Below, one piece after another: positions 1-53,254 of a DNA stretch of 64,000 bases (position 1 is the stretch's first letter; every line of letters starts with the position of its first letter). Position numbers and translations under genes: made by a program. The DNA is from Peronospora farinosa (Eukaryota; Oomycota; Peronosporomycetes; Peronosporales; Peronosporaceae): positions 248,001 through 312,000 of the forward strand of contig CANTFK010000986.1 in the NCBI GenBank assembly GCA_947646735.1, read 5' to 3'. Under the pieces are notes generated by a model. That model did not search any database and was not told where the DNA came from. It was given only the letters and a program-made list of their open reading frames with translations.

Positions 1-604
1 GTGATAGATCCTGGACTACAGATAGGCAGAATTGTAGGTTTCGAGTTTTGATTGGTTAACACTAAACAGAGCTCAATTTTACTTCTAATACACGTGTCGA
101 CTTCTCTTCCGGGCTGGATTCTTTGGCCACCCGAGGTCTCGAGGAAGCCTACACACTACGCAAGTCATATCCCTGGATTGTTTGGCCAGGGATTGCAAGA
201 ACTCTCAACACAACTCAACTGCGATCGGACGCAGATAAAACACGTAGGGCAAAGCGAAGCAAGTGCAGGACGGATCAAGTGGTCAGAAGGTTCTGCTCAA
301 GTGGTCAGAAGATTCAAGCTTCGTTTTATTGGATAACCGTGATCGATTGGGAAGATCACACCAAGTACTCGGTTTATCTTGTGAAGATTTCCACAAGATA
401 ACCAAACCTCCTATCCCTAACCCAATTAGGATCAACATCGACTCAAGTCCACCGAGAAGAGAGCAACCCGCCCTACCGACGGGTACACAAGGTGAGGAAG
501 TCTTTATACACGGAATCGGGGTACCCCCTCCGTTAGTCGGTCGTCCGGGAGCCAGTGGAGAGTTGGAATCGCATCAGCAATTTTGCGAATCCCACTCCAC
601 CACA
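1..604 (+). repeat. Gypsy-1 5' LTR, start cut by window edge
   Basis: It matches 10233-10835 base for base apart from substitutions near 72, 159, 252, 304 and 550 and one extra C near 468. It ends in CCACCACA. Judging from the 3' copy, the LTR probably starts TGACACG, nine bases before this window. Confidence 0.95.
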
Positions 605-2898
605 ATGGTGCGCGTGCCCGGATCTTCTGGTGACTCGGGATTTCACCGTGAGTCCCTGAGAGAAGATGTTAAGGTCAAAATTGAACCTGGGATTGAAGCG
701 TCAGCGGCAAAGGGATCACCGCAGACGTGTGAAGAAAAAAGATCCCCGGATCATCAGCGTTTTGGGAGGGGCGCAGATGAAAAGAAAACCAAAGAGGAAG
801 ATCAAGAGATTGATCTAGAAGAAAAACCTCTACCCCCTCCCCAGGTCCTTTCGAGGACCCCTGCGGATCACGTTGCAAAACGCGATCCGCTGGATAAAAA
901 TCCTTCGGTTAAAACCGAAGGAAATTTATCCAAAACCACTCCGAATTCGAAGAAGAAGAAGAAGAATTCGAAGCGATATCGAGTGAAGATGAAGGCGCCT
1001 GAGTCGGATCATGATGATGCCGACATGAAGCTGGCGCATGAGGAAGACAAGGCGAAAGGATGGCAACTGGATCAGTTGGAGTGGTGTTATCATTGGAAGG
1101 AGCTTAAAGATCTGTTGTCAAGCGATCCCGTTCTAAAGATTTTGAAACCGAAGTTAATTGGATCGCTGCGAGGACCAATTTCAGCTCCCATTCCGACACC
1201 GAACCAGTTGGAAGCGATCCGTCGGCTTATGGAGCTGCTCCAAAATGCTGGATTCACCGCTGGAGCTTTTGACGCGCAGGTGCTGCTGGAATGCAATCAT
1301 GATCGCGTGATCCAGGAAGGGCGATCTCTGTTTGCGAATTTAGTTCCGCTACTGGGGAATGCGATCCAGTAGACCAGGCGATCCAACCGATCGTAGATAT
1401 TCCAAAAGTTTATCACATTGGATCGTCACAATATATGTCAGCGGAATCTGAAGGGGAGTCGGATACCTCGATCAACATTCAGCGAATGTCACTTGGACCG
1501 GCTGGTGCAGCACACATTCGTGAACGACTTGTACCGACCAAGGCCGAAGTACAGTCGCCAACTACATCCGCAGCTTAAGATACGAATGTGACTGGATCAG
1601 GGCAGCTGCAGTCCTACTTTGAAGCTGCTATGAGGAAGTATGAACAGGATCAAGCTCGCATGATCGCTAGTCGATCCGCGATCTCCATAAATACCCCAAA
1701 AGTCTGCATTTCGGATGTGGACATGGAATCGGCCGGATCGCGTCAATCGCGATCCAATAATTACGATCCAGACGATTTGGGGTTGGAGGATCTACGACGG
1801 CCACAAGTCGCAAGTGCAGGCACTGTACCCAATGGTGGACTTGTCACCCAGCGAATTCGAATGTCTGCGATCGCAGACCTGAAAGAATTCACAGGACGGG
1901 ACAAGGACGAAGATCGGGCGAGAAGCTGGGTCAACAAGGCCAAGTCTGCATTCTTACGCGATCAAGCCCCGGACGATGAAAAATGTCTAGTATTTGGTGA
2001 CTTACTCACGGGGCCGGCGCGAAATTGGTACATCCAGCTTAGACGATCTACCCGGAATTCATGGAAGTCGTTGCTGGAAACCTTCATGATCCAGTATTGT
2101 GGATATGGTATGTCTGTCGGGAGACAATATTACCATGCGAAGAAGCGATCTGATGAAACTCCATTAAAATATTTGTATCGGCTGAATGTAGCCGCGATCC
2201 GAGCAAAAATCCCCATTCGGGAAGGATCGCCTTCAATTCGCCGAGAACATGTGGAACATTTCATTGGTACGCTCGACGATCGCGATCTGGCTAAGCAATT
2301 GACGTTGTTACGCCTTGGAGATGCCGACGATATGGAAGAGACTCTTCGAACATATCAACGCATGGAAGGGAGACAGTATCCGAGTGCAATGGGGTCAAGC
2401 AAATTTCGTCAGCGATCTGCGTCGGCCTCCACTCCGACACCCTCGAAACCAACTCGTGCTGTGAGAGCAATCCGCCTGGAAGGCAGTAGCAGCGAGTCAG
2501 ACTCGGACCTTAGTGGATCGGACGCCGATACAGATCGACGCAATCTTTGTGTGGCTACAGTACCGGATCGCGTGAAGAAATTCAATGATCAACGTGCTGG
2601 ATGTGAGCATTTGGATCAAGATCGCAGTCCAGATCGCATGGGGAATCAGAAGGCTTGTACCCATTGTGAATCAAAGAAACATGATGATCGTGGATGTTGG
2701 AAGAGGCTAATGTGTCAGAAGTGTGGTCGCAAGGGAAACCCTTCGGATAAGTGTTTTTACATCTGTTCCGCCTGCGGAGATGTTCATAAGAGTGGAAAGT
2801 GTCGAATGGAAGAATTCTACAACATGATACGCAAGTGGTATGTCCCAACCAAGCATGCTGGAATGCTTCCGCCGAAGGCAGAAGAAATGTTAAACTAG
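605..2898 (+). pseudogene. Gypsy-1 gag, with one frameshift and one stop
   Basis: Gag would form the retrotransposon particle. The first segment (605-1372) is lysine-rich and charged. Near 1355-1372 the open frame shifts by one and continues to a TAA at 1576-1578, after which the same frame runs to the TAG at 2896-2898. The part from about 1588 has a capsid-like helical region (around 1860-2370) and then three cysteine-rich knuckles near 2650-2815. Knuckle one is C-X2-C-X4-H-X4-C. Knuckle two has Asn where His is expected. Knuckle three is C-X2-C-X3-H-X4-C. The end overlaps pol in the -1 frame. The single original ORF is my inference from the two small breaks. Confidence 0.8.
606..622 (+). 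other. Gypsy-1 primer-binding site
   Basis: A TGG triplet starts two bases after the LTR terminus and is followed by TGCGCGTGCCCGGA. PBS sequences begin TGG because they pair with the CCA end of a tRNA. Which tRNA is used was not determined. The gag start codon at 605 overlaps this site. Confidence 0.6.
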
Positions 2899-2941
2899 GA
2901 CGCTCGCCAGGTTGGAATCTGGTACGAGCCGAGCGTTCTAG
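2889..2941 (+). promoter_or_regulatory. Probable -1 ribosomal frameshift signal, gag to pol
   Basis: The heptamer G-TTA-AAC (2889-2895) is in the right phase: gag codons are TTA AAC and the -1 codons are GTT AAA. It is followed directly by the gag stop TAG. Bases 2895-2906 can pair with 2930-2941 as a 12-bp stem with one G-U pair, and an inner CCAG/CTGG stem lies in the loop. GTTAAAC is a known slippery sequence in arteriviruses. The short spacer is atypical, since the stem must partly open to leave the usual 5-9 nt. Confidence 0.55.
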
Positions 2942-5900
2942 GCTCTGCATTTATGCATTTGTGGAAAGAAGATCGACTGATCAAGGTGTTAACGCTTGGA
3001 TCGACCCGATTAATACATGTGAGGATTCAAAAAATTTGCGTTTAATATCAAGTGTCGTAAGAGTTGATGAATATGCCCGATCGCCTGCTAAAATGGAGCT
3101 CGACTTAGCACCAGGTGAATCACGAGGATATTGGAAATATCATACCCCTGGAAAATGGTTCAAGCAAGCCAAGGCAACGGGCAAGATCAACAATGAAAAG
3201 GCGATTATGTTGTTTGATTCTGGAGCCGAAGTCTCGATCGTCGACACCACCTTTGCTCGTAAGGTAGGATGTGTCATTGACGAGAGCCAAAGGCAAGAAT
3301 GCGTTGGGATTGGTGAGAACACATACATGACGGATGGTCGTACAAGAATCAAGATTACGCTGAATGGATCATTAGTCTACTATTTTGATGCTTGGGTTGG
3401 AGATCAAGTAGGTCAAGACGCGATCTTGGGTATGGATTTCATGGTACCGGATGGGATACGCTTGGATTTAGCCGATGGAACGCTTTGTTTACCTGAAGAG
3501 GTCAGGATCCTTCTGAATGGACGAAGACCTCCTTATCGGGCTACTATACAAGCGATCACAATTCCAGATCAATTCGTGGTGATTCCCGTGGGTAAATCGA
3601 CCGAAGTGAAGATCGGAGTTAATCCTCCTAAGGCCAAGATCTGGGTGAGGCGTGATCCGAAATGGGTGCCCACAGTGACTACGGGACCTGGTCAGATCAA
3701 GTACTTACAACTGACTAATATCGGCGATGAAGAAGTGACTTTAAGTCATGGATCGCCATTAGGTTGGTGGATGGTCGCTGATATGATACCTCGGTCCCCA
3801 GGATATGTCTCGGTAGGATCGCGTCGGTATAACGAATGGCAGACATTAGCGTTCGAAGCGACAACGGATCGGGAAGAAGAGCCACCGGAAGAATATACCG
3901 GACCGCTAGTGGATCATCCTTCGTACCCTACACCGAAAAGGGTCTTAACACGCTCAAAAGAGGAAGCAGAAAAAAGTACCACGGAAACAGCGAAACTCGC
4001 GTCACGATCAAATGATGAACGCAGTACAATAAGTGACGTCGGTGATAAAGTTGTACAAGACAGGGAGATCAAGGACGAACATCAACGATCAGCACGATCG
4101 CCGTTTAAGATTAATGTGATCAAAGGAACGCCAGAAGTCGATCAAGTAAAAGATGTGCCAGTCAAAGAAGCTCGCACCAACGAAGGCATCGATTCAGAAT
4201 TTATTGATCACTATATGAATCTTGTCAATCATGATTATGGAGATCGCGATCCGACAATTACAGATCGCGATTCAGCAATCATTGAAAGTGTTTCTGTGGA
4301 TCGCGATCCTGCGATTATTGATGGTGTAGATAGCGATCCAGCAATTATGGAAAGTGTTTCTGTGGATCGCGATCCTGCGATTATTGAGGATGTAGATCGC
4401 GATCCAACAATTATTGACAGTATTTCTGTGGATCGTGATCTGGCAATTAAAGATATATGTGCGGATCGCGATCCTGCGATAAAGAATCGCGATCCACAGT
4501 CCCAAAAGATGGAAAATAAGTCCGATGTGGAAAACGAGGGAGAATTTTCGACGAAAGGTGAAGAGGTGAAGCTGGAGAGTACAACATATTATCATGAAAG
4601 TGGTGAGTTGTATGCCGAAGACGTAGATCAACACATGGCAGTTTTGCCAGAAATTGGTCCATCTACAGCCGAAGTCACAATTGATGATATACAAGTGGGC
4701 GATCCGGGAGTTCCCCTAACTGAAGACCAAGAAGGATTACGACAACTGATTTGGAAGAGTCGTCATTTGCTTATCGGCAAAGGAAATGCCTTACCTCCAG
4801 CGGCACGTGGAGCTGTATGTGATATAGATGTTGGTGAAGCACATCCGATCGCACAACGGGTGCGACCAGTCGCGCCTAAATTTCGTGAGAAGTTAGCTGA
4901 CCTAATCAAGGGATTATTATCAGCTAAAATCATTCGACCATCGACTTCACAATGGGCCTCTCCAATTGTTGTGATCATTAAGAAGAATGGTGTCGACATC
5001 CGTTTGTGTATCGACTATCGACGGGTGAACCAACTGACGAGACTAATGGTTTATCCCATGCCTTTGATAAGCGAACTGCTACAAGACATGGACAAGGCGA
5101 TGTGGTATTGCTCTCTGGATATGGCGAGCGGATATTGGGTCGTGGAAATGACGGAGCGGGCAAGAATGATTTCAGCTTTTATTACACCGTCGGGTTTATT
5201 TGAATGGTTGCGAATGCCGTTTGGGCTGAAAAACGCTCCACAGATTTATCAGCGACTTATAAACAATGCGTTGTATGGCTATCTCAAGATCGGCAAGAGT
5301 ACGACTACGATCGGTGCAGAATCAACAGATTCGAGATTCCCAAATACTGGATCGCCAAGATTGATTGACGTGTTTTCAGAGGGAGAACCGGATACCAGCC
5401 AGAATCCCTCTGTGCTTGGTAGAAGATCATATATCGATGACATACTGATTCCCGCTACGTCGTGGACCTCCTTATATGATAAGGTGAAACGATTGCTAGA
5501 GGCATGCAATGAATGGAATCTGTCGATAAGCCTGGCTAAAAGTTTTTGGGGACGACGAAAGGTGGATTACTTGGGACATCAAGTTTCACTCGCTGAAATA
5601 GAGGCACATCCAAAAGATCTAGGATCACTTGAGAATATCCCATTCCCAAAGACATTACGATCGATGCAATCTTTTCTAGAATGTTTGAATTACTATAGCC
5701 GATTTATCGAGGATTTTGCGATTTACGCTTCGGTGTTGTACGAATTACGGGAAGCAGATTTCCATGAAATCCGCCGTTTGGATAAGGTGAATACACTGGC
5801 TAAAAATGTTGGAGGGAGTAACGATGGTGACTGGCAAGAAACGAATCAACCTAATCCAGATCGAGACCCTGATACAGGGGGCGATCCAGATCGAGAAGGT

Positions 5901-8664
5901 CGGACTAGATGGGAAAAATCGATGACCGCGTTCACTATGTTGAAAGCCAAGATCGCAAATACCCCGATTCTCAAGCACTTCGATCCAGATCGACCTCCAG
6001 TTATTGTTGTTTACGCAAGTAAATGGGCGGTTTCAGCAGCTTTGCTGCAGGAATTTGATGGCATATATTGGCCGGTAACATTTTCAAGTCGGATGTTGAA
6101 GCCGAATGAAATAAATTACGGGATGGTCGAGAAAGAAGTTCTGGCACTTCTCCGGATTTTGGATACATGCTATGCTATGCTAGTCTCGCGAGAGATAAAG
6201 GTTTTTACACGTTATTCAACGCTGGCCTGGCTAGTACAATCCTCCGGTCTTAATGGACGACTAGGAAGGTGGGCTGCATTGTTATCGACTTGGACGTTGG
6301 AGATTAAGAAATGCGAGAAAGGAGAGGACGAAATACTTGGAGCTTTGGCGGCAAGTATAACGCCCCGTGAGGAAGTCGATGAGGTACTAATTGCGATCGC
6401 TCCCCGGAAACAGCCAAGAAGGACTATAAGTATGCCTTCTCCTACGGTAGGAAAGACGGAAAGTCTTTTGGTCGTCAGTTTCGATGGATCGGCACGAGTA
6501 AAACGTAAAGGTGGAGCTTATAGTGCTATTGTGTGGCAATTACCAGAGTGGACAATTTTGGAGGCAGTTTCCAAATATTCAACGGATCTAACAGTGAATG
6601 AAGCAGAATACAACGGCATGTTGCTGGGTTTTGAATTACTCACACACCAGGACAGAAGACGAGTTATAATTTGTGGAGACTCGAATTTGGTGATACGGCA
6701 AATGCGTGGTGAAAGTGATGTAAGGCACCAGGTCTGCAATTATTGCGACATAAAGCGTTGAAGAAATTGCGGTCGTGGCCTGCTCATGAGTTTCTACATA
6801 TGAAACGCGATTGGAATCAGAGCGCAGATCGATTAGCTAGTATCGCATTGCAACGAGAAGAGGGGGCGAGTATGATTACGGATGAGGATCGTCGAGATTT
6901 AATTACGCTTAATCGGTTGGATGAATTGCTAAAGCCTCAAGAGACCAAGTCAGTGGTTAAAGTAGCGGCGATAGCTCGATCACCACGAAGAAAACGTCGA
7001 CAACCACAAATTTTGCAGGAAGAAATGGTGCAGCAGATGAGAAGTGATCGCATACAGCGTGCCCAAGACGAAGAACGCTGGATCGCTAATCTGAATGCAT
7101 ATTTGGTCGGAGACATTTCGACATTGACGGTCGAGGAAGCGAAATCATGTGCCAAGATGGCTAACGATTATGAAGTGGATGAAGATAATCTGTTATATTT
7201 TTGCCCGGGCCCCACAACGAAATCGGAAGATCGGGACGAAATCGCTCGTCTGGTGGTGCCCGAAAATCTGCAGCAAGATTTCCTGCATCATTATCATTCT
7301 AGTTTGGAAGGGGGTCACCTGTGTTTGGGAGAACCTACCAGCGGATTAGAGCGCATTTTCACTGGAGGGGTTTGTATCGAAGTGTCCAACGCTATGTGAA
7401 TCAATGCACAGATTGTGAAACTGGAAAGGGACGTCCCGTGATTGATGGAGAATCACCGGGGAATCTACAGTCTACCTATCCTTTCCAAATTATCGCCATG
7501 GATCACATACCGTCTCTGCCTAAATCGTTCAAAGGAAATACCGAATTACTTATCTGGGTTGATTTATTTTCTGGCTACGTGATCGCCAAAGGAAGTTCGT
7601 CGCGAACAGCCCAAACTATCGCTGAAAATTATGAAGAGTGTGTTTTCCGTCGTTTTGGTGCTAGTGAAGCAATACGTCATGACCGAGAGCCCGGGTTTAT
7701 GTCGGATTTTTTCGTGCGTTTAACCGAATTATTGGACAGAAGCAAAGGGCAACGATGGCATATCGACCTCAAGCAAATGGAACTGCTGAGCGTATGGTGC
7801 AAACTCTGACTCGTGCATTAAAGATGTATGTCTCTGATGTGAATCAACAATACTGGGATGAGTATGCCGAACGCCTAACTTTCGCGATCAATACCGCCCA
7901 AGATCGGGTGCGTGGCGAAATGCCATTTTTCTTGATTCATGGTTGGGACCCGCGATCTACGTTGGAAGCTACATTATTATTAGGGAGTACGAGGCGTCGG
8001 GATCGCGATCCACGTAGGTGGCGATATCATGTGCAGCGGCATTATCAGCGGGCGAGAGAAGCAGTAAATGAGAGACTCAGGACTGCGATCCAAACACGTG
8101 CTGATCGCCACAATGAAAATCTCAAGCCTCACGAAATTGAACCAAGGGCGCAAGTCTGGTTATATTTGGATGGGTTAAAGAAGGGTACGCTCAAAAGCTA
8201 GCACATATGTGGCATGGACCTTTTCGAGTAAAGGAAATATGTGGAGATCACGCTGTCCGACTGGAGATTGCTGGTACACCATTCGATTATTTCCTGTCGT
8301 ACATATATCCAAGTTGAAGAGAGTAAAGACGTTCCCCGATCGTCCAAAAAATTTGCTGACGATCGAAGAAGAGTATCGATTCGATTTTGATGAAGCGCTT
8401 TTGCCGGAAGATAGTTTTGAAGGTAATCTGGAAGATGATGAATTCGAAGTGGAAAAGATTGTGGATGTACGGTCTGATAGAAAGACACGTTTTGGACGAG
8501 TACATAGACAGTTTAAAGTCTACTGGAAAGGTTATGCTAACCCATCCTGGGTGGACGAAGCCGACTTAAATTGTGGTGCCCTATTGCGAGATTTTGAACG
8601 TGGCGAGATTAGCCGGAATCGTTTTGAAGCGATGCAATCACATGAAGAGGGATCTGGTGGCTAA
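2895..8664 (+). pseudogene. Gypsy-1 pol: protease, RT, two RNases H, integrase, chromodomain
   Basis: An aspartic protease motif (LFDSGAEVS) lies near 3210-3235. The RT spans about 4850-5600 with a YIDD catalytic motif at 5434-5445. A Gypsy RNase H follows to about 6360. A second RNase H lies at about 6460-6830, with Asp in SFDGSA, Glu in NEAEYNG and Asp in CGDSN. The integrase has an HHCC finger near 7285-7415 and acidic residues in AMDHIP, RHDREP and the segment after 7755. A chromodomain is at about 8440-8600 (FKVYWKGY, then SWVDEADL). Frame changes occur near 6750, 7320-7390, 7755-7800, 8199 and 8280, so this copy cannot make a full polyprotein. The chromodomain would guide insertion to modified chromatin. 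Confidence 0.85.
4255..4500 (+). repeat. In-frame minisatellite between protease and RT of Gypsy-1
   Basis: About eight imperfect copies of a unit containing GATCGCGATCC are translated as repeated DRDPAI-type peptides. The number of codons stays in frame. The same CGCGATCC core forms the noncoding array at 9590-10145. Confidence 0.85.
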
Positions 8665-9589
8665 CGAAGATCGAATGTTGGGGATGGTATAATATGCAAG
8701 AAGGTTGCATAGGAGGGTGGAAAGGAAATTTGTGTGTAATGCGTATGGCGATCGAAGGTCTAAGAGACTGGATCACGGCTGAAAAGGCCTAACAAAAGAA
8801 GACAATTTTGGAGATGATTAACGAAATGGAGAAACAAAATAAAATTGTATTGAACGACTGAGAGGTGTTACTAGTCAACAAACACCCCGACGAAAATTAA
8901 TCGAACAGACGGTGCACAGCCAGATCGACACTGTATACCGTCTACCGGTGCAGGGGACGATTGTGGTAAAGTCGATTTGGAGTTTTGGCTAAGTCCATGT
9001 ATTAATTTTATCGATAAATCCGGAGCCGAAATATCGGGACTTTTCTCGCCAACGGCTGGATCCCTTTCCCATAACGGTTGGATTCCTTTCTCATAACGGT
9101 TGGATCCCTGTCCCGCTTACGGTTGGACCCCTTTCCCATGACGGTTGGATCCCTTTCCACCACTAAGTCACTTACTAAAATGACTTATTGGGTGTGGTGG
9201 AGTCGATCGTAATTTATGGTTGATCGAATGGAAAAGTACCATTGATCGTGGCATGGATCATATTTCCATGTTATATTGGATTATCATGGAATAGATCACC
9301 GCTTGGATATACTTGGTTCCAGTATCGGTTGATCCAACTGGATGTATTAAAATTGCACGGATTTTACTTGAATGTGGAATATTGGAATTTCTCAAAGTGT
9401 GGATCGCGGCCTCAATTAATTGTAATGGACAAATCATGATCCGAGATACATATCGTATCGCTATCGAGTTTGGATAGCACCGCGATCCAAGTCTGGATCG
9501 CACTGCAATCTTAGTATTCAGGTGGATCCGCGATCCGTGATTCGGTTATTTCACTGTGGAGGAGCGAGTAAACAATTTTCGTTAATTGT
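8665..9589 (+). other. Gypsy-1 3' noncoding region
   Basis: Stop codons occur in all frames and no gene was recognised. It holds the short tandem array at 9051-9160 and scattered GATC motifs. It probably belongs to the transcribed 3' part of the element. Confidence 0.6.
9051..9160 (+). repeat. Tandem repeat, about 5 x 24 bp, unit AACGGTTGGATCCCTTTCCC
   Basis: Five adjacent imperfect copies of a unit reading roughly AACGGTTGGATCCCTTTCCC plus AT. The copies differ by single bases and small indels. Confidence 0.8.
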
Positions 9590-10145
9590 AGATCGCGATC
9601 CAAGTTATGTGGATCGCACATCAAGGATCGATCCCGAAACATTGTGCAGAAAACGCGATCCAACTTGGAAAACGCGATCCGACTTAGAATCGCGATCCGA
9701 CTCAAAACCGCGATCCAAAGCTGAGCGCGATCCGACTCAGAATCGCGATCCAAAGCTGAACGCGATCCGACTCAGAACCGCGATCCAAGGCTGAGCGCGA
9801 TCCGACTCAGAACCGCGATCCGAATCAGGACCACAATCCAAGGCTGAACGCGATCCAAGGCAGACCGCGATCCAAGGTAGACCGCGATCCGACTCAGAAG
9901 CGCGATCCAAAGCTGAGCGCGATCCGACTCAGAATCGCGATTCGACTCAGAACCGCGATCCAAGGTATATCGCTATCCGACTCAGAACCGCGATCCGAAT
10001 CAGAACCGCGATCCAAGACTGAGCGCGATCCGACTCAGAACCGCGATCCGACTCAGAACCGCAATCCAAGGCTGAACGCGATCCAAGACGGAGCGCGATC
10101 CAAGGTAAACCGCGATCCGACTCTGAACCGCGATCCAAGGTTAAG
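9590..10145 (+). repeat. CGCGATCC minisatellite before the Gypsy-1 3' LTR
   Basis: Almost thirty copies of the octamer CGCGATCC (or one-base variants) occur every 15-30 bp, separated by short spacers such as GACTCAGAA, AAGGCTGA and AAAGCTGA. The spacers alternate, which gives a higher-order unit of about 32 bp. Confidence 0.9.
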
Positions 10146-10210
10146 GCAAGATCGCCGATGGATCGGGATGGCAAAGGCATTTGGGGTGGACCACATATCG
10201 AGATCTGATT

Positions 10211-10223: not shown

Positions 10224-10835
10224 TGACACGTGGTGATAGATCCTGGACTACAGATAGGCAGAATTGTAGGTTTCGAGTTTTGATTGGTTAACACTAAACA
10301 GAGTTCAATTTTACTTCTAATACACGTGTCGACTTCTCTTCCGGGCTGGATTCTTTGGCCACCCGAGGTCTCGAGGAAGCCTACACACTAAGCAAGTCAT
10401 ATCCCTGGATTGTTTGGCCAGGGATTGCAAGAACTCTCAACACAACTCAACTGCGATCGGACGCAGATAAAACACGTAGGGCAAGGCGAAGCAAGTGCAG
10501 GACGGATCAAGTGGTCAGAAGGTTCTGCTCAAGTGATCAGAAGATTCAAGCTTCGTTTTATTGGATAACCGTGATCGATTGGGAAGATCACACCAAGTAC
10601 TCGGTTTATCTTGTGAAGATTTCCACAAGATAACCAAACCTCCTATCCCTAACCCAATTAGGATCAACATCGACTCAAGTCCACCGAGAAGAGAGCAACC
10701 GCCCTACCGACGGGTACACAAGGTGAGGAAGTCTTTATACACGGAATCGGGGTACCCCCTCCGTTAGTCGGTCGTCCGGGCGCCAGTGGAGAGTTGGAAT
10801 CGCATCAGCAATTTTGCGAATCCCACTCCACCACA
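10224..10835 (+). repeat. Gypsy-1 3' LTR
   Basis: From 10233 it matches 1-604 at about 99%. The 5' end is placed at TGACACG after the purine tract and the 3' end at CCACCACA. The following bases TTAAC are the interrupted gag of Gypsy-2 copy B. Confidence 0.9.
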
Positions 10836-11208
10836 TTAACAAGGAGTCGTTTTCGACCGCCTTGTACTTGGAGACCTTAATCTTCAAGGACTCGGGTCGA
10901 CGTGTATACGCCGACCCGGCAGCAACAGCACTAGCCTGCTGTTGTCTCAACAGTTCAGACTGTTGAGCGCCTTGTTCTATCAACAGTTCAACCTGTTGAG
11001 AACCTTGCTCCTGTAGCAAGGTGGGTTTCTTTACAACTTTGTCAAGTTCATGTTGTATGAACTTGGCGATGGTTGCATGTTGGTCGTCTCCGCTAAGAGA
11101 GAGCAACATGGCACCAACGGCAGGGTTGCCGATGGTTTCATCCATACGCTGAACCGCATTCCATTCGAGGTCACTCAAGTGGCGGAAATCATCACCCGCT
11201 GATTCCAT
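10836..11208 (-). pseudogene. Gypsy-2 copy B gag, truncated
   Basis: The ATG at 11208 corresponds to that at 16324 in copy A. The predicted protein follows copy A with a few substitutions until residue 124, where Gypsy-1 interrupts it. The open frame then runs into LTR sequence, so the last residues are not gag. Confidence 0.85.
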
Positions 11209-11256
11209 AGCGGATGGTGCGGTGGTCGCTGAACGGACCACGAAGTGCTACCAGGT

Positions 11257-11692
11257 CCTCCGACTATACTGATTACAGTATAGTCTACTTTCACTGATGA
11301 CAGTGAAAGCAGGTGCCTCAATTACCTTACGTACACGTGAGCAGAGGAAGGCAATCAACTAAACAAACGCTTAGTTGAGAAGGAAAAGAAAACTGTATTT
11401 AATATAGTTAACTATCTAATAAAACTAATCTGTTATAACCTATGTTAACTATATTAAACTACAACTATGTATGTAGACAACTTTCCATCCACTCATTGCG
11501 CGCGTCCATCGGTCATTGGTCAGCGCGTTGGTCGATATGATGGCCCATATCAACCAATGAGAGGGCATCTCCAACTTCAAGGAGATCTAGGAACAATATT
11601 ATAAGAAAAGATAATATTGTCAAATATTATTAGTTATAATAATATTTTTATTGACACGTGTCAATATTATGTAACGGGCTCACCCCGTTACA
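11257..11692 (-). repeat. Gypsy-2 copy B 5' LTR
   Basis: It is 436 bp long and differs from the copy A 5' LTR by only about five bases. It starts TGTAACGGGG on the minus strand and ends CGGAGG just before a TGGTAGCACTTCG primer site. Confidence 0.9.
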
Positions 11693-11790
11693 CTGACGAT
11701 TCAAGGGATCATGTCTCCGACTTCATTTCGTATTTCTCCCCCATCATGCAACGACTGGTCCGCAGTGAATTGGATTGTGTTAGTGTAACA

Positions 11791-15700: not shown

Positions 15701-15839
15701 GACGTAGCACAAACTAAATAACAAATCAATTGCAGAGGAGCTTCCAGCATCTAGCCACCAAAATCGTCAGAAGACATTGCATTACTCGTCGTTGACGCCC
15801 ACGCCTCTACTTCGGGCAGTGCCAATGACAAAATTAATG
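12702..15839. other. Gene-poor island between inverted Gypsy-2 LTRs
   Basis: No intact gene was found in 3.1 kb. On the minus strand 13963-14515 holds three short open stretches in different frames with balanced amino-acid composition, which could be the remains of one gene. Nothing in them was recognised. The rest has dense stops on both strands. Confidence 0.4.
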
Positions 15840-16275
15840 TGTAACGGGGTGAGCCCGTTACATAATATTGACACGTGTCAATAAAAATATTATTATAACT
15901 AATAATATTTGACAATATTATCTTTTCTTATAATATTGTTCCTAGATCTCCTTGAAGTTGGAGATGCCCTCTCATTGGTTGATATGAGCCATCATATCAG
16001 CCAACGCGCTGACCAATGACCGATGGACGCGCGCAATGAGTGGAGGGAAAGTTGTCTACATACATAGTTGTAGTTTAATATAGTTAACATAGGTTATAAC
16101 AGATTAGTTTTATTAGATAGTTAACCATATTAAATACAGTTTTCTTTTCCTTCTCAACTAAGCGTTTGTTTAGTTGATTGCCTTCCTCTGCTCACGTGTA
16201 CGTAAGGTAATTGAGGCACCTGCTTTCACTGTCATCAGTGAAAGTAGACTATACTGTAATCAGTATAGTCGGAGG
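15840..16275 (+). repeat. Gypsy-2 copy A 5' LTR
   Basis: It begins TGTAACGGGGTGAGCCCGTT, part of an imperfect terminal palindrome, and ends near CGGAGG. It contains the palindrome TTGACACGTGTCAA and, at its 3' end, two perfect hairpins (16223-16244 and 16247-16270). Confidence 0.9.
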
Positions 16276-16278
16276 ACC

Positions 16279-16292
16279 TGGTAGCACTTCGT
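16279..16292 (+). other. Gypsy-2 primer-binding site
   Basis: TGGTAGCACTTCG lies three bases after the inferred LTR end and is also present in copy B. TGG at the start fits pairing with a tRNA CCA end. Confidence 0.5.
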
Positions 16293-16323
16293 GGTCCGTT
16301 CAGCGACCACCGCACCATCCGCT

Positions 16324-17427
16324 ATGGAATCAGCGGGTGATGATTTCCGCCACTTGAGTGACCTCGAATGGAATGCGGTTCAGCGTATGGATGAAACCAT
16401 CGGCAACCCTGCCGTTGGTGCCATGTTGCTCTCTCTTAGCGGAGACGACCAACATGCAACCATCGCCAAGTTCATACAACATGAACTTGACAAAGTTGTA
16501 AAGAAACCCACCTTGCTACAGGAGCAAGGTTCTCAACAGGTTGAACTGTTGATAGAACAAGGCGCTCAACAGTCTGAACTGTTGAGACAACAGCAGGCTA
16601 GTGCTGTTGCTGCCGGGTCGGCGTATACACGTCGACCCGAGTCCTTGAAGATTAATGTCTCCAGGTACAAGGCGGTCGAAAGCGACTCCTTGTTAAGATG
16701 GTTCGTCGAGCTCGACGATGCGATGAAGGTCAAGTTCGCCATGTCGAACTTGGCAGGACGTGCCAAAGCTTGTGCCTTAGGGCTCAAACTGCATGACCCA
16801 TACGTTTACCCAACGTATGACGTCTTCAAGGCGCGGCTCAAACACACGTTTGAACCGGCTCGCGCCCTCGCACCGAATTCAGGGCTCGGCTGAGCTTCTG
16901 GATTTGAATAGGGTAAGCGTGATATACACGCTTACGCCCAACACGTACGATACCTCGTTAGTTGTATCGTACTGAACCCAATCGATGAACACACGCAGGT
17001 TACTGTGTTCATCAAGGGTCTGACAGATGGTCCTGTCAAGACCCACCTGTTCCGCTTGGGACTAGAATCGCTGGATCAAGCGATCTCGGCAGCGGAACAG
17101 GAGGACTTTAGCCTACAACAGGCTCACGTCCACTCGGGGTCCTATCGTCCACCGAGACGACAGGAGAGCGGAGGTCCAGAACCAATGGATCTCTCCTATG
17201 TAGAGAGCGAGCGACCTCGCTCTCCAGGGTACAAGCAATAGCAAAAGTGCAATCGCTGTCAGAAGTTGAGCCACTACGCTTATGAGTGTAGTGCCCCACG
17301 CCCAGTGTCTCGTAACACTGGGAGTGACGATCGATCGTCTGCCAAGAAGGGCCAGAGACGTGGGTCCCACGTTGCTGCAAAATCGCAACAACGTAGTGGA
17401 CCATCAAAAAACGGTCGGGGTCAGTAG
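16324..17427 (+). pseudogene. Gypsy-2 copy A gag
   Basis: The ATG at 16324 starts a capsid-type protein (16324-16893) rich in Gln between residues 60 and 100. A small out-of-frame patch and two stops (16891-16893, 16909-16911) follow. The same frame then resumes through 16912-17241, ends at an in-frame TAG (17239-17241) and continues into a C-X2-C-X4-H-X4-C zinc knuckle (around 17248-17290), which a real gag should include. The frame closes at TAG 17425-17427. The breaks look like decay of one ORF. Confidence 0.8.
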
Positions 17428-17487
17428 GGGCGGAGCGCCCTACTGATCCAGCAACGTCAAGAGAGTTCGCGGGACTCTTGACGAAGG

Positions 17488-20400
17488 TTGCTCCCAACAC
17501 ATCCCAGTGATGAGGTATCCCTCATCACCTTGAAGATCGAAGTGACAAAGAACATGTCACTTCGCGCCCTAGTTTATTGTAGGGCTTCGAACAACTTTGT
17601 TCGACGCCAATCGCTAGATGATCGTAGGCTCATATATGTTAAGCGCGAGACCTCTCCAACGAGGATGACGGTGCGCCTTGCAACGGGCGCATCCGTAACA
17701 GTAGAAAAACGTGTAGTGGGAATTCACTACACGCTTGAAGGCAAAAAGTACGATGATGATTTCATCGTACTTGATCTGGATGACAAATTTGATGTCATCC
17801 TAGGATTACCATGGCTCAGAAGGTACGAGCCATGGGTCAGCTGGCAGCATCGAACCGTAAAGATGCCTACCGCTTGTTCATCTGATGGCCATCTGATGAA
17901 CGTCTTGGAGAGTTCACAAGCGTGTGAGTGTTCTGCGAGTGAGTGTGATAGGCTCCTGTGGCTCGGTCGCTAGCACGACTGCACAAGAACTCAGTGTGAC
18001 AGACAGTCACACTGTGGAGCAAGATGCCGGCGGCTGTGCACAAGCACAGGCAGCGCCGAAGGTCCATCACTCGAGCAAGTCGAGTGGATCGGGACATGAA
18101 TGCTCGCTTAGAGGGCAGCATTCACCGATGAGTAAACTGTTTGCCCAGAAGCGGCAACACGGTAATCCTAGATCAACTGGAGAGTTGAACGTAGAGAATC
18201 TCGCTGTGGTTGCGCCACCACAGCTAGAGGAAGTCGATGGAACAAGTTCCATCGAGCCTGCGGGAATAAGTCCCCAGGAAATAATTACTGAGGGAATAAG
18301 TCCCCAGAAAGTAACCGAGACGTTAAACGTCTTGGTTGATGACGGATCAAACGTAGGCGCTTATACGCTTGATCTGATCGCGCCTCCAAAGTTATATTCG
18401 GAGATACCGGAGTTGCCTACGCTCGATTCTAAAAGGTTCTTGCGTGATCTGCGTAGTGGCAAAGTCAAGCAGATCTGTGTGCTCGTCGCAGAGGACGAGT
18501 ACATGACTGACATTCGGTTTGAAAAAGTATTTGCCGAGAACGAAAATGTTCTCAGCAGCTCAACAATGGACGAAAGTGTCCTTGATGAGAAGACTCGGAT
18601 TAAGCGATGCACATCGCAATCCTGGGAGTCACTGAAGTCATATACTTTGTATAAGGATTTGGTCGAATTCAAGGATGTATTCTCTGTATCCGTTATGTGT
18701 GAGGAAACCTAAGGATAAAGGTACCCGACACGATATCGACCTCGTTCCAGGCACAAAATATTGTGTCATGAAGCAGTGGCCACTGCCACGGGAACAGGTC
18801 GAGGCGATCGACTTGTTCTTGCCAATCGCCTAGCAGCGGGCCATGTGATGGAGTCAACTTCACCTCACAGCTCTCCGACCTTCTGTGTGCGCAAGGCCAC
18901 AGGAGGGTGGCGGATAGTGCACGCGTTCAATAAGTTGAACGCTGCAACGATACCGGCGCAAACGCCGATACCGAGAAAGGACGTAATCATAGATGGTATG
19001 TCTAAGAGTATTATCTTTTCGTCCATCGATCTGATGGATGGTTTCTATCAGATCATAATGCGTAAACGGGACATCCCGTACACAGCAGTGAGCACTCCCA
19101 GTGGTATGCTCTGGAAATGGTTTGTGATGCCGCAAGGGCTCAGTAATGCACCGGTCACATTCAATAGATGTGTTTCACAGCTATTGAGACCGGTGCGCGA
19201 ATTCGCACCGAGTTACTTCGATGATGTGTTCGTCCATAGTCGAGCTATGGACGGGAAAACAGACGTGGAAGTCCATAGACTCCACGTCCGTAAGGTTCTT
19301 ACACTTATGCGCGAGCATAAGTTGTACGCCAACCTTAAGAAGTGTATATTCGCAGCTAGCGAAATACCACTTCTTGGGTGCATCGTCGGAAAGAACGGCG
19401 TACGCCCTGATCCAGAAAAGATCAAGGCGATCACCGTCTGGCCAGTACCAGTCGATGACAAGGGAATAAGGAAGTTCCTTGGGCTAGATGCGTACTTGCA
19501 CAAGTACTCACGAAACTACACCGAGATGACAGTACATCTTTCTTGTTTACTCAAGAAAAATGTTAAGTGGATGGGAACACTGACTGTCAGCGTCCCTTTG
19601 AACGTATCAAGCAAAGCTTGATGCAATCTCCAGTATTGGCGATTGCCGATCAAGACAGACCATTTCATGTGGTCTGTGACGCCAGCAATTTTGCAATCGG
19701 CTTTGCACTGATACAATATGACACAGAAGGCGCAGAGCGCGTCGTCTGCTACCAACCGCGTCAGCTGCAACAAGAAGAGTGCAACTATCCGGTGCATGAC
19801 AAGAAACTCCTTGCCATGAAGTATGCACTGGCTAGTTTTCGTGTATATCGCTTAGGAGATAGACCTTTTATAGTGTATACAGACCATGTATCATTGAGCA
19901 CGGCTGTAAACAGTCCACACCTCTCGCAAATAATGGCGAGATGGTTTTCGTTCTCGCGGACTACAACTTCTCCGTGAAGCATAACCGGGACGACTTAGCG
20001 TCTTCTTCAATGCTCTTTTACGTCGGCCTTACTTTAGGCCGACTGTGCAATCCGACAGTGATGTGAACACCACTGTCGTCGCTGAGTACCAGCGTCTTGT
20101 CTTCGAGTAAACTCGACGACATTAGAAGGGAATGCGCACAAGATAATGATCTTGTACGCCTGATGGAGTACCTAAAGGACCCATGCAAGCAAGCTAAGAA
20201 GCGCTTGCCTGCCATGTATCGATCTTCTCTCGATCGATACACCCAGCGGGACGGCTTACTGTACTACACAGCCGTACGCCTCGTGTCGTTGTACCGCCAC
20301 AACATGATCTCAGGTTACGGATCATGTTTGAATGTCACGATGCACCAATAAGTGGGCATCGTGGCCGTGAGAAGACTTATCTCACGGTCAGTCGCGACTT

Positions 20401-22432
20401 TTACTGGCCACGCCAGTATAAGTTCGTGCGCAAGTACGTGCGTGCTTGCGAGGTGTGTCAACGAGTGAAGCCTAGTCCTTCACTCCGTGCACCATTGCAG
20501 CCTCTACCTGTTCCGGAAGAGTGCTGGAAGTCCGTATCAATGGACTTCGTCTTTGGGTTTCCCAAAGACGCTCACGGGAATAATGGTATTCTCGTGTTTG
20601 TAGACAGGTTCAGCAAGATGGTACATCTTGTTGCTGTACCTGAGTCGATCACAGCAGAGGGATGTGCACGAGTGTTTATCGATACAATCTTTCGATTGCA
20701 CGGTTTACCCCGTGAACTTGTGTCCGATAGGGACCCCCGGTTCACGGCTGAGTTTTGGCGTTCCGTGTTCCACACACTTGGAACACGGCTCACAATGTCT
20801 ACTTCTGACCATTCATAAACTGATGGTCAGACTGAACGCGCCAATCGCGTCCTCGAAGAGATTCTTCGAAGGTACGTCCACTCTTTTACAAGTTGGAGTG
20901 AGTTCTTGTCGATGGTCGAATTCGCCATCAACAACTCCGTGCATGCGTCCACGACGCATACACCGTTCTACGTGAATGGCCTTCGCCATCCACGTGTCCC
21001 CACCTTAGTAGAGGATGACTCTAATTTAAGGGGGGGGACTCGCTCGAGCGAGAACCAATCTGGCTCTAGCTCATCACGCGACGACGTTATGGTCGACGCG
21101 AAAGTAACCGAAATCGTACCATTCGACTTCGGTGAAGAGGAAGAAAGTAAGAGCGATGACGCTCTTACTGATAACGATGCTGATGATATCAGCATCGTTC
21201 GAGGTATCACAAGTGAGAACAGTAATGTTCTTGCTAAGTTAGTAACCGATATCTCTGCAGTGCACTCACAATGCACTGCAGCCAAAAGCAACGAGTCAGC
21301 TGAGGATTTCCTGCTGACTCGTGAAGCGGTAGTCCGTTTCGTGCAAGACTCCATCGCAGAAGCGGTGGATAAGCAAAAGCGAAACGCAGACAATAATAGA
21401 AAGGCAAATGCTCAGACATTTATTGAAGGTGATTTAGTTTTACTGTCAACAGTAAACCTACCTAAACATGTAGTGACTAACGTGGGAAGCAATAAATTGT
21501 TGCCCAGGTACATCGACCCGCTTCGTGTATTGCGCCGCCTAGGCAACGCATACACGATCGAGTTTCCACGCAGGATGCGTACGCATCATACGTTTTACGT
21601 GGGACGTCTTCGTCCGTACGTTCAGTACGCGGCTTCTTCGAACGGCGAAGATAGCCATTACTCTCAAGAATCCCCTTCAGATTCTTGTTGTCAAGAACCA
21701 GATTTGATACCTGGTCGTGTAGAGATGAGATCGTCCCATGATATTGGACGATCTTCTGACGAGCTGTCTCCAGCTCGTTACTTAAAGAATGAAGTCGCCG
21801 TTCATCCTCCATTAGTGCGACAGCATTGTTTTCCCGAGACTTCTCATGGTCAAACCCAAGCTGTCGCACAATGTCCTCTAAGCGGCGACGCTTCTCCCGT
21901 TAGTGGTCAACATCACAACGTAGCTCACGAGTTACACGGGCAAACCCGTCTAACTCAGCAGACAAGTCCGATGAAAGAATCGGACAGGGTTTTCCCTCCA
22001 CCACCGCATCCGCTGGTGGACTTCCATGGTGGGAAGCACTTCCTCGTGGAACGCTTACTATATTACCGTGAGGTGAAGGGACGTCGGACGAGTTATCTCG
22101 TCCGGTGGCGTGGCTATCCGCCTTCGGCGGATAGCTGGGAACCTCGGGCCCAACTGATGGCCGACGTTCCCGGCCTTGTCGAACAGTACGACAAGGGACA
22201 CCCGATGGTGAAGGACCATCGGAAAACGAGCGCCCAGCGCGCTCGTAAAGGGGATTGCAAAGTAGCAATCCCTTCACGCATCTCAGAAGAGATACGAGCT
22301 CTCCACCAGGGCTCAGTAAGGAGGTACGCCTCCTTAGGCACTCTTGACGAGGTGCTCAGGCACCCCGGGCATGGTTCGCCCCAAAAGAGGCATAACAGGC
22401 CTGCCTCTCTAGATAACCGGTGCAAACGATAG
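17488..22432 (+). pseudogene. Gypsy-2 copy A pol: protease-like, RT, RNase H, integrase, chromodomain
   Basis: A retropepsin-like region (17488-17973) has YCRASN where DSGAS or DCGAS is expected, so the catalytic Asp is missing. A variable linker leads to the RT (about 18830-19500) with YFDD near 19213-19224. RNase H (VCDASN) lies at about 19567-19977. The integrase (about 20324-20990) shows a His/Cys finger, Asp in SMDFVFG and Asp in SDRDPRF. A TAA at 20816-20818 then interrupts it just before TDGQTERAN, which holds the catalytic Glu. A long spacer precedes the chromodomain (about 22030-22190; YLVRWRGYPPSADSWEP). Frameshifts occur near 17930, 18710, 19600 and 19975, and further shifts or stops lie between 19980 and 20324. 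Confidence 0.85.
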
Positions 22433-22536
22433 CATGCACCAGACGTACTTCGTTTCTCAAACTTATTGCGGCTAGCATAAAGTTTTTGAAACCAAGCCTC
22501 TTTCCCAACGTTTAAAACGTTGGTGATAAACGCGTT

Positions 22537-23274
22537 CTAAGATTGGAAGAACGCGTCAGACTCACGCTTATTGTGTGGGCCATACCATCGATGTTCAAGA
22601 AACACATCGATGTAATAGTCGTTCTCAGTGCGAAAGTTCTTCGCACTGGCGTCAAGGCCATGAAGCTTTGACGCATCAAACAACGGTATGGGAAACCGTT
22701 CGTGGGTCTTTCCAGACCAACGATCACGCAGATGCTTAGATAGCATCCATGGCTTGCGATCAGGCGCAAGACGCAATACGTTGCGGTCTAAAGCCTCCTA
22801 CGTGGTGTCAACAGAAGTACCGCCACCACGTACATTGATGTCAGTAGAAGCACTGACATCACCCTCACGGTCCCCACCCGAGTCACTATCCTTCGATTCG
22901 TTTGGCGAGTCGTCTGATTCATCAGACGACCCGAACATTTCACGGTACATTGATTCGCTCAATGTACCACGATCCCTCTTCGTAACATTCGACGACGCGT
23001 TATCACCCCGGGGAGAGCCCGGGAGTGGAATAGGTGGCTTTGAGTCGGATGCGTAATCCGACTCACCAGAGTTCTCAACGGCTAACTCTGGGTCAACATC
23101 TTCACGTGGCGAAGCGCCACGTGAACCTGCAACAGGCGTTGCAGGCTGATGTTGACTTCCAGCAGGCACATCAGTGTCTGCTGGCTGAGGCTGCGAAGCC
23201 TCAGTAGCGGCTGCACACAGGCGTGCAGCCGAGCTCTTAGCTGCCTTAGCAGCGACGCGCATTGACTTAGTCAT
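22537..23274 (-). pseudogene. Antisense ORF of Gypsy-2, one in-frame stop
   Basis: An ATG at 23274 on the minus strand opens a frame of 245 codons, broken only by TAG at 22798-22800. The first part is rich in Ala, Ser, Asp and Glu and contains YREMFGSSDESDD. The second part has an aromatic, basic segment (KHLRDRWSGKTHERFPIPLF; EHRWYGPHNKR) and stops at 22537. The position between pol and the 3' LTR on the opposite strand resembles antisense ORFs reported in some plant Gypsy elements. I recall similar proteins annotated as hypothetical in Phytophthora, but the function is unknown to me. Confidence 0.6.
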
Positions 23275-23346
23275 AGCGTAAAATTGTTGGAATAAAAAAA
23301 ACCAACATATGCTCCTTTCCCATAGTCAACTAATGTGACTGTTGGT

Positions 23347-23359
23347 TGAGGGGGGGGGT
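23347..23359 (+). other. Gypsy-2 polypurine tract
   Basis: GAG followed by a run of G lies directly before TGTAACGG of the 3' LTR. Confidence 0.7.
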
Positions 23360-23361
23360 GA

Positions 23362-23804
23362 TGTAACGGACTCACCCCGTTACATAATATTGAGATTTAT
23401 ATGAAGTGTCAATAAAAATATTATTATAACTAATAATATTTGACAATATTATCTTTTCTTATAATATTGTTCCTAGATCTCCTTGAAGTTAGAGATGCCC
23501 TCTCATTGGTTGATATGGGCCATCATATCAACCAACGCGCTGACCAATGACCGATGGACGCGCGCAATGAGTGGAGGGAAGTTGTCAACATACATAGTTG
23601 TAGTTTAATATAGTTAACATAGGTTATAACAGATTAGTTTTATTAGATAGTTAACTATGTTAAATACGTTCTCTTTTCCTCTACTTCTAAGCGTATCGTT
23701 TAGGAGTAAGCTTCCTCTGCCTCTTGTGTAAGAGAGGTTTTGAGGCACCTGCTTTCACTGTCATCAGTGAAAGTAGACTATACTGTAATCAGTATAGTCG
23801 GAGG
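23362..23804 (+). repeat. Gypsy-2 copy A 3' LTR, divergent variant
   Basis: It is 443 bp long. Its first 300 bases resemble the 5' LTR with scattered changes, but it lacks the CACGTG palindrome. About 100 bases (roughly 23655-23745) differ strongly. The twin hairpins at the 3' end are unchanged (23752-23773 and 23776-23799). Confidence 0.9.
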
Positions 23805-23828
23805 GTGCCCCATTACATATTAGATCAA

Positions 23829-24061
23829 TGGTGTGAAGATTTTTCACACGATCACCACCACCACCCCTACCTCAAAGGAGAATTATTATCATAATCGACT
23901 CAAGTCCACTGAAAAGAGTAGCAAACCGCCCAACCGAAGGATACACAAGGTGAGGAAGGCTTTATACACGTAATTCGATTACATCCTCCATTAATCGGTC
24001 GTCCGGATGTCATTGGAGTTTTAGGATCACATCAGCAATTTTGTGGACCCCACTCCTCCAT
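23829..24061 (+). repeat. Decayed partial LTR of the Gypsy-1 family
   Basis: It aligns by eye with 381-604 of the Gypsy-1 LTR (shared blocks include ATCGACTCAAGTCCAC and ACACAAGGTGAGGAAG) with many substitutions and small indels. It is much older than Gypsy-1 and lies 24 bases after the Gypsy-2 3' LTR. Confidence 0.8.
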
Positions 24062-24402
24062 ATTAGCAATGGCACTGGCTATGTTAATGCGATGCACCTC
24101 CATGTCATGCCGTACCATAACAACCTAACGTGCGTGTAGCGGTGTGGAACGACTTCTACGCAAGTTGTCCTATCGCATAGAACCTAAAAGGCGTCGCACA
24201 ACTTAGGCACCGTATTACTATATAACTTTGTGCGCGTGATTTATTTAGCTTGGGTTTCGTCGAATGCAGAAAAACAGTTGAGGGTGAGGAGGTGATAGTG
24301 CCGGCTGCAGGCATACTAGTGCGGAGCATGTGCAGCGTGGATCGTGTAACGTGGGATAGTTTGCAATATTGTGGCATGGCAGGCGCAAGTGTCATTCTTT
24401 CC
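24062..24402. other. Intergenic, nothing recognised
   Basis: There is no ORF of note and no repeat match to the neighbouring elements. It marks the border between the repeat block and the gene island. Confidence 0.5.
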
Positions 24403-52769: not shown

Positions 52770-53254
52770 GTATGAGTCTTCAAAATGTCCGTCCGTCTCT
52801 CCCTCCGTCCGTCCGTTGTCAGTGTGTGGATAAGTCCTGCCTTTCACGATGACAACCAACGTCCAGTACAAACAATCGACTCGTTGCTCGTTTGATAGTC
52901 TCCTCTTTTCTCTCGCTCAATTTGACGCTCTAGTCAGTCAATTCGTTGCCACCTGCCGACAAATTGTCGTCGCTTCTTGGCCCCCTCGATGGACTAGAAA
53001 CGTGTGAACAAGCGCCGGATGACAAAGGCGTATAAAAAAGACATCTAAAGAGCTCTGCGAAGATGGGCATGCAACAGAAAACGGTCAGTAGCTATCGAAG
53101 ACAAGAGACAGGGCACGTACGACCGTTTTTTAGCATCTTCCGCCCATGCAGAAAACATACTGTATGTTCTTGTCCAGTAATTCCGTGCGTCTCGTCTCCT
53201 CTTTTTTAGTCCGTAAAGTGGTCGCAATTCGGGGTTAAATAGTCATCGGTATAT
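52770..53254. promoter_or_regulatory. Divergent promoter region of FYVE gene (-) and PNKP gene (+)
   Basis: 485 bp between start codons. It includes a CCGTC tandem near 52790-52815 that probably lies in the FYVE 5' UTR. No other element was assigned. Confidence 0.4.

Follow-up and report, generated by a model that had tools for sequence, protein, structure and literature searches.

The element and its position in the window

The 64,000-nucleotide (nt) stretch of Peronospora farinosa DNA analyzed here (contig CANTFK010000986.1, positions 248,001 to 312,000 of the forward strand), referred to below as the window, contains at 15840-23817 a long terminal repeat (LTR) retrotransposon that is packed with short perfect hairpins in coding and noncoding sequence alike. 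Such an array is specific to one lineage, a single Gypsy family; two related families have it in mild form, and it was not seen in a short sample of a third. Pfam matches to an aspartyl protease, RVT_1, RNase H, the integrase zinc finger and core, a Tf2-1-like SH3 domain and a chromodomain identified the element as a chromovirus-type Ty3/gypsy LTR retrotransposon, whose reading frames are broken in the window copy.

All parts of the window copy lie on the plus strand. The 5' LTR (15840-16275) starts with TGTAACGGGG, lacks the last ~12 nt (GTGCCCCATTACA) found in other copies, and carries nine hairpins. It is followed by a gag-like region (16276-17400) with 13 hairpins (11.6 per kb) and interrupted frames (open at 16285-16893 and 16912-17241), where a Pfam scan of the stretch 16285-16890 gave no match. 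The aspartyl protease (17482-17970) matched RVP_2 at about 17551-17868 (E 6.1e-08), and the reverse transcriptase (RT; 18719-19618) matched RVT_1 at about 18887-19384 and has five hairpins in 18719-19566. RNase H (19567-19974; RT_RNaseH and RT_RNaseH_2) has the fewest hairpins, namely one. The integrase zinc-binding domain and core (20198-20815; Integrase_H2C2 and rve) are followed by the C-terminal part of the integrase (20819-22429), with the Tf2-1-like SH3 domain, a chromodomain at about 22043-22195 and 15 hairpins in 21001-22432. The Chromo match at this terminus scored 48.4 bits in the window copy and 23.2 bits, under the cut-off of 25.1, in a sister family (L079, described below). The 3' noncoding region (22433-23361) holds 13 hairpins (14.0 per kb), and a 175-codon open stretch of the minus strand (22798-23325) runs across it. 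The 3' LTR (23362-23817) is 92.8% identical to the 5' LTR and ends at 23817, not at 23804 where a preliminary description, made from the sequence alone, had placed the end of the element.

The LTRs of other copies also start with TGTAACGGGG and end in CCCC(A/G)TTACA, giving TG...CA ends, and in most of the other copies displayed TGGTAGC begins two bases past the LTR, where it is a candidate tRNA primer-binding site. Since no target-site duplication was seen at the window copy, its LTRs have diverged and its 5' LTR is short of the terminal nucleotides, it is probably a recombinant or strongly decayed copy. Additionally, a partial second copy consisting of the LTR and the start of gag lies on the minus strand at 10836-11693; it is 99% identical to 15839-16696, and its hairpins match.

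Hairpin density and controls

Hairpins were defined as perfect inverted repeats with arms of at least 8 bp and loops of at most 15 nt, and were listed for the whole window. The element contains 86 of them, 49 with arms of at least 9 bp, against ~1.5 and ~0.4 expected from base composition. The packing that the preliminary description had reported was therefore evident on a full count, and all 17 of its examples were exact as given; its estimate of about thirty hairpins was an undercount. In 4-kb bins of the window, 35 hairpins fell in 16-20 kb and 45 in 20-24 kb, compared with seven across the 39.9 kb from 24.1 to 64 kb and a total of ten in positions 1-10200, several of these inside the repeats of the element Gypsy-1. 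Gypsy-1, which had been described as free of the trait, indeed has only five hairpins in 7.3 kb, but this is mildly above chance, and two of the five lie at its 66-bp tandem repeats. Within the hairpin-rich element, the density was 9.7-20.6 per kb in both LTRs, gag, protease, integrase, the C-terminal part and the 3' noncoding region, and the excess was weaker in RT (5.9 per kb) and RNase H (2.5 per kb).

Synonymous-codon shuffles, which keep the protein and the codon usage, did not reproduce the hairpin count. The window copy has seven open stretches with 1-15 hairpins each, whereas 100 shuffles of each stretch averaged 0.07-0.5; the weakest contrast was that of RNase H, with one hairpin against 0.07. 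The longest open frames in four pieces from two other copies had 14-21 hairpins against shuffle means of 0.4-0.9. Together with the base-composition expectation, these shuffles ruled out a coding or compositional artefact.

Copies across the genome

A search of the Peronospora farinosa genome with the RT protein gave 150 matches, 91 of them (window copy included) at least 77% identical and 59 at 66-68% identity. For 20 of the 39 other copies listed, 5' and 3' pieces were fetched (40 pieces, some flank included). At least 10 hairpins per kb were present in 32 of the 40 pieces (range 3-16, flanks included), and 27 of the 40, their flank counted in, exceeded the 10.8 per kb of the window copy. 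An assembly artefact is unlikely, as these 20 copies are spread over 18 contigs and are hairpin-dense with private differences. The LTR pairs of 14 copies were 95.5-99.75% identical, which indicates young insertions. Relatives were also sought in viral_contigs and genome_contigs, where none was confirmed. The 3' piece of copy c07 (L065) contains a second copy in inverted orientation, so that the element there forms a large inverted repeat. For the alignments of copies, truncated or rearranged pieces were dropped, namely c01, c08 and c20 at the 5' side (18 of 21 kept) and c01, c05, c06, c07 and c14 at the 3' side (16 of 21 kept).

In copy c03, 104 hairpins were counted in 7,502 nt against 1.4 expected, and 2511 of the 7502 nt in its two pieces (~33%) lie inside perfect short hairpins. 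Arm lengths in this copy form a hump, with 32, 34, 25, 8, 4 and 1 hairpins having arms of 8, 9, 10, 11, 12 and 13 bp, and loops peak at 4 nt (28 hairpins) and seldom exceed 12 nt. The stems are tightly spaced, with 47 gaps of at most 15 nt against 27.7 in a non-overlapping null, to which the scarcity of hairpins in RT and RNase H no doubt contributes. Close packing would suit the idea that the hairpins are inserted modules, such as small mobile inverted repeats or hairpin elements. We regard this idea as very improbable, given that the stem sequences and the loops differ and that no repeat family of at least 60 nt links the hairpins; for the coding hairpins it is refuted by the many stems that lie within codons aligning gap-free to the sister family.

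Related families and other RT loci

The sister family L079, whose RT belongs to the 66-68% group, has a 1762-aa open frame and carries 19 hairpins over 5.45 kb (3.5 per kb); the 19 of the frame compare with an average of 1.6 over 200 synonymous shuffles, none of which exceeded 6. A second relative, L038 (RT identity 64%), has eight in 3.5 kb (2.3 per kb). A third, L082, is equally distant from the main family and from L079, at 69% amino-acid identity to each over 295 residues. The preliminary description had proposed a comparison with other Gypsy families, and in none of these three was the density of the main family equaled. The centres of L079 hairpins fell on those of the main family no more often than chance predicts: 4 of 25 lay within 3 nt, with a null mean of 1.8 (P 0.10). 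Given these differences in density and site, the hairpin load and its places change between families. The arms of L079 are G+C-rich (65% vs 54% elsewhere), unlike those of the main family (48.8% vs 51%), and the two may therefore not share the cause of their hairpins.

Another 29 RT loci (L009-L037) had 0-3 hairpins per ~3.7 kb. They were dropped as Gypsy controls and kept as controls for RT elements, as they were non-LTR-like where scanned: the nine proteins scanned had RVT_1 without integrase or RNase H, and four of the nine had an endonuclease match. The Gypsy controls are thus Gypsy-1 and L082 only.

Among the best 120 of 1190 relatives of the window RT, identities were 75-86% in P. matthiolae, 85% in P. 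effusa, 84% in Pythium oligandrum and 60-74% in Phytophthora. The host protein SMC3 has the reverse order, being up to 87% identical to Phytophthora and 65% to P. oligandrum. Because the RT is nearer to P. oligandrum while SMC3 is nearer to Phytophthora, patchy spread or horizontal transfer of the element is possible.

Loop inversions in individual copies

In all 21 sequences, the loops enclosed by identical 8-bp arms were read; hits from the c07 3' piece were left out, as its second, inverted copy makes hairpins look loop-inverted by construction. Eight loop inversions were found in individual copies (c12, c14, c15, c16, c17, two in c20, and the window 3' LTR), of which seven were exact and that of the window 3' LTR was one base off. 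The exact flips were AAC to GTT in c14, ATAAG to CTTAT in c15, CCT to AGG in c12, CTTA to TAAG in c20, ATTA to TAAT in c17, and ATAC to GTAT in both c16 and c20. The 10-nt flanks of the seven flips displayed were unchanged in six and differed by one base in c12. In the window, the flip lies in the hairpin at the start of the 3' LTR (23361-23385), where a 7-nt middle is inverted relative to the 5' LTR and the other copies.

Nine equal-length loop variants carried at least three changes; five were exact inversions, two were one base off (the window 3' LTR and c12 TTAG, the latter ambiguous and left out of the count) and two were unrelated. Loop variants with two changes comprised 2 inversions beside 18 non-inversions. 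Among 97 distinct clusters of at least three changes relative to c03, five fit a nearby reverse complement, none fit a plain reversal, and a plain complement explained one, which is also among the five. When exact patterns were counted genome-wide, one hairpin had the ATAC loop at 34 places and the flipped GTAT loop at 19 (19 of 53), and another had ATAAG at 85 places and CTTAT at two. Copies c16 and c20 were absent from the 15 listed pairs that share two-copy alleles (5' tail, 12 copies; in c20 the tail does not include the hairpin itself), so that their shared flip probably recurred or was exchanged.

Two further hairpins of the window copy differ from those of other copies. At 15866-15883 there is a loop-less palindrome where c03 has a longer, looped hairpin, i.e., the loop was lost, and at 16154-16177 three pairs of an LTR hairpin are exchanged (T-A/A-T) on both arms relative to other copies with the pairing kept, a difference that would fit homogenization of one arm to the other but is not polarised.

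As the loops flip in individual copies, template switching acts on these hairpins. Passages of a study of yeast (PMC8604942) describe how template switching homogenizes arms and inverts spacers, and ascribe to it ten spacer inversions in coding sequence, recurrent in four genes. The same flips could be attributed to the host, with genomic inverted repeats being perfected by DNA replication after insertion and the element offering many targets. The yeast events lie on chromosomes, and ordinary chromosomal inverted repeats undergo spacer inversion too, according to the same passages; an excerpt of a second yeast study (PMC3820800), which also counts for the host, reports that near-palindrome mutations increase in highly transcribed DNA without RNase H2. 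Additionally, some deletions end in hairpins: among 24 deletions of 4-60 nt relative to c03, three had both ends in hairpins, 11 had one and ten had none. We nevertheless consider host switching improbable as the origin of the array, since little excess was seen in the other parts of the genome that were sampled (the seven hairpins in 39.9 kb of the window and the 0-3 per 3.7 kb at L009-L037), arm extension in the copies was not above chance, and the decayed window copy is poorer per kb than 27 of the 40 other pieces, so that time spent in the genome seems to erode hairpins.

Origin of the hairpins

The best-supported reading, to which we give a probability of about one half, is that template switching built the hairpins in the course of the element's own replication, with protein constraint as a filter. 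During copying of the element's single strand, the nascent strand would fold onto itself at a near-palindrome and use its own first arm as template; an imperfect inverted repeat would thereby become perfect, and the loop would sometimes be flipped. The loops are local, with the peak at 4 nt, as for physically folding strands. Switching would take place mainly in the replicating (reverse-transcription) phase and not after insertion, and protein constraint would remove the switches that damage proteins, as suggested by codon position 2, which is equally conserved in arms and elsewhere (identity to L079 of 0.698 in arms vs 0.707). A more far-reaching version, in which the element's own replication drives its whole genome to a chain of perfect hairpins, with self-templated copying dominating its evolution and the proteins following, is put forward tentatively, at somewhat less than even odds.

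Differences between copies bear on when the hairpins formed. Private single-sided changes in stems, counted as distinct events, were common (93 G-T, 83 A-C and 149 other) and double changes were rare, and the copies thus mostly lose hairpins; this would mean that some process absent from inserted copies generated or preserved them in the replicating lineage. An apparent sense-strand bias in the per-cell counts of GT/TG vs AC/CA (157 vs 106) was gone when distinct private events were used (93 vs 83, p 0.50).

The main rival is selection for a folded single strand, either the genomic RNA or the first-strand cDNA. Stems would then arise by ordinary point mutation, as far as the codons allow, and be retained for a gain such as packaging or resistance to antisense RNA or nucleases. 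We hold this to be a possible but doubtful origin. When folding energies were compared with those of dinucleotide shuffles, the median z per 120 nt was about -4.5 in c03, whereas a host stretch and two further RT loci gave ~0, as expected under this rival, which would also account for the close packing of stems in c03 and for arm lengths that saturate at 8-11 bp. Codon position 2 is intact in the arms, pairing registers are uneven (21:16:7) in a manner explicable by codon constraint, and the lower amino-acid identity to L079 in arms (0.45 vs 0.567) is a cost that needs some payoff.

Against selection for folding, the usual marks of a structured RNA were lacking in the main family. The near-perfect stems of c03 had 15 G-T and 21 A-C mismatches beside 122 perfect stems of at least 7 bp, so that G-U is no commoner than A-C there; the counts were 6 vs 4 in L079 (30 perfect stems) and 1 vs 3 in L038 (15). 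The arms are not G+C-rich, the tetraloops of the main family share no common motif, and no significant bias of A over T was found in its loops. Neither positions nor paired changes are conserved with the sister family, where 33 double changes lie below the 38-59 of slid controls. Stems had seemed to be conserved between the families, and the apparent excess (159 of 392 pairs) sits in unchanged bases. Moreover, related families range from ~14 hairpins per kb to none in 0.9 kb, and sister families fold barely better than shuffled sequences (z of -0.67 and -0.64). Selection for a folded RNA, which the preliminary description had offered as a cause, is therefore weakened and remains the main rival. 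Self-silencing, which it had also suggested, has to reckon with Dicer-type enzymes, which as far as is known need a longer duplex than arms of 8-13 bp.

Several observations weigh against template switching during the element's replication as the origin. The loop flips, eight in number and reaching 19 of 53 places for one hairpin, bear out the proposal of the preliminary description to the extent that switching acts on these hairpins, which is less than showing that it made them or that it took place in reverse transcription; since yeast chromosomes undergo spacer inversion as well, according to the passages of PMC8604942 cited above, the flips may be host-made. Perfect stems have been ascribed both to compensating point mutations and to one-step template switching, and excerpts of PMC8794818, which treats this debate, report an enrichment of loop-only inversions in rRNA histories, a point in favour of switching; against it, the combination of a loop inversion with a compensatory change, regarded there as the best support one could have, is extremely rare. 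Homogenization of arms was not caught happening in this element. Private changes at the first unpaired pair beside stems were paired in 13 of 25 cases outside the stem (against 10.0+-2.3) and in 6 of 18 inside it (against 6.1), neither of which is significant; the origin by template switching is thus what we infer, with no significant re-perfecting of arms in the copies.

Nor did the arms of the main family show overwriting relative to L079, their identities being about equal (0.558 left, 0.521 right) with an outgroup that is distant (54% nt identity); in the hairpins of L079 itself the left arm was ahead in 11 cases vs 4, with a difference of 0.095 against a null of 0.011+-0.058, which is also not significant. 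The comparison, in which codon position 2 also stays untouched as stepwise change would predict, gives a pattern of many small accepted changes and not of whole-arm overwriting, which could be reconciled with template switching if only switches that mend a few mismatches survive protein selection. The covariation of arm pairs between copies that the preliminary description had suggested looking for exists but is rare: only 8 of 985 stem pairs had two Watson-Crick types, six of the eight coming from the window copy alone. Additionally, L082, with an RT of the same kind, had no hairpin with an arm of at least 8 bp in 889 nt, where windows of the same size hold 7-16 in the main family and 1-5 in L079.

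Stem arrangement and two of the folding tests belong on the same side. Stems of at least 8 bp with loops of at most 12 nt hardly overlap in four copies (0 overlapping pairs in c03, 0 in c02, 1 in c11 and 4 in c04, against ~28-33 under random placement), which suits one coherent fold; some stems of the window copy do overlap, as do weaker stems of c03 (9 pairs at arms of at least 7 bp, 28 at arms of at least 6 bp). The G-T vs A-C yardsticks for selected RNA structure were 4 vs 0 in E. coli rRNA (5 perfect stems) and 7 vs 5 in phage MS2 (7 perfect stems), counts that are small. Both strands of the element fold equally well, and MS2 is nearly symmetric too, so that strand asymmetry does not discriminate for or against selection on the sense RNA and was set aside as a test.

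Other repeats in the window

A 604-bp repeat (1-604 and 10233-10835, 99% identity) flanks Gypsy-1, and part of it recurs at ~81% identity at 23881-24069, behind the hairpin-rich element; these are probably the LTRs of Gypsy-1 plus an older fragment. The polyprotein frame of Gypsy-1 contains three 66-bp tandem repeats, rich in GATCGCGATC, at 4262-4459, and further tandem repeats, of 35-bp and 53-bp period, lie just before its second terminal repeat (9647-10145). Elsewhere in the window, a degenerate 15-bp tandem repeat of ~735 bp (51440-52174) lies in a long minus-strand frame (49797-52871), and the plus strand is also open at 51226-52470.

Significance and comparison with known systems

Up to ~100 stems in each of many close copies, beside poorer families in one genome, amount to a replicated natural experiment. 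Should the process reside in the element's polymerase, it would be a mutational drive on a whole coding genome, and the element would show how far fold-back copying can reshape an entire genome; if selection is responsible, this would be a structured retrotransposon genome without the usual hallmarks of RNA structure. Hairpins this dense may also be expected to disturb the sequencing and alignment of such repeats.

In the order of protease, RT, RNase H, integrase and chromodomain, and in its TG...CA LTRs, the element resembles the Ty3/gypsy chromoviruses (Metaviridae), from which it differs in having about a third of the c03 pieces in perfect short hairpins. No description of a hairpin-tiled retrotransposon was found in the titles and abstract openings that made up the literature searched.

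RNA viruses and phages have genomes with ordered RNA structure on a genome scale, for which MS2 served as the yardstick here. The likeness lies in local stem-loops along a coding genome and in folding below shuffled controls. MS2, however, has 3 perfect arms of at least 8 bp in 3.6 kb compared with the 104 hairpins in 7.5 kb of c03, and the element has no G-U beyond the A-C control.

Ty3 itself, a related type of element, has short palindromes in its genomic RNA; in the excerpted account (PMC11381356) these are six palindromes in the 5' part, one of them for dimerization, whereas here they run along the whole element. With template-switch mutations at inverted repeats (Monttinen and Loytynoja 2022; Abraham and Hazkani-Covo 2021), the element shares perfect arms, short loops, exact inversions and apparently recurrent flips. 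The published cases considered are single sites spread over genes, whereas here ~100 sites lie in one 8-kb element.

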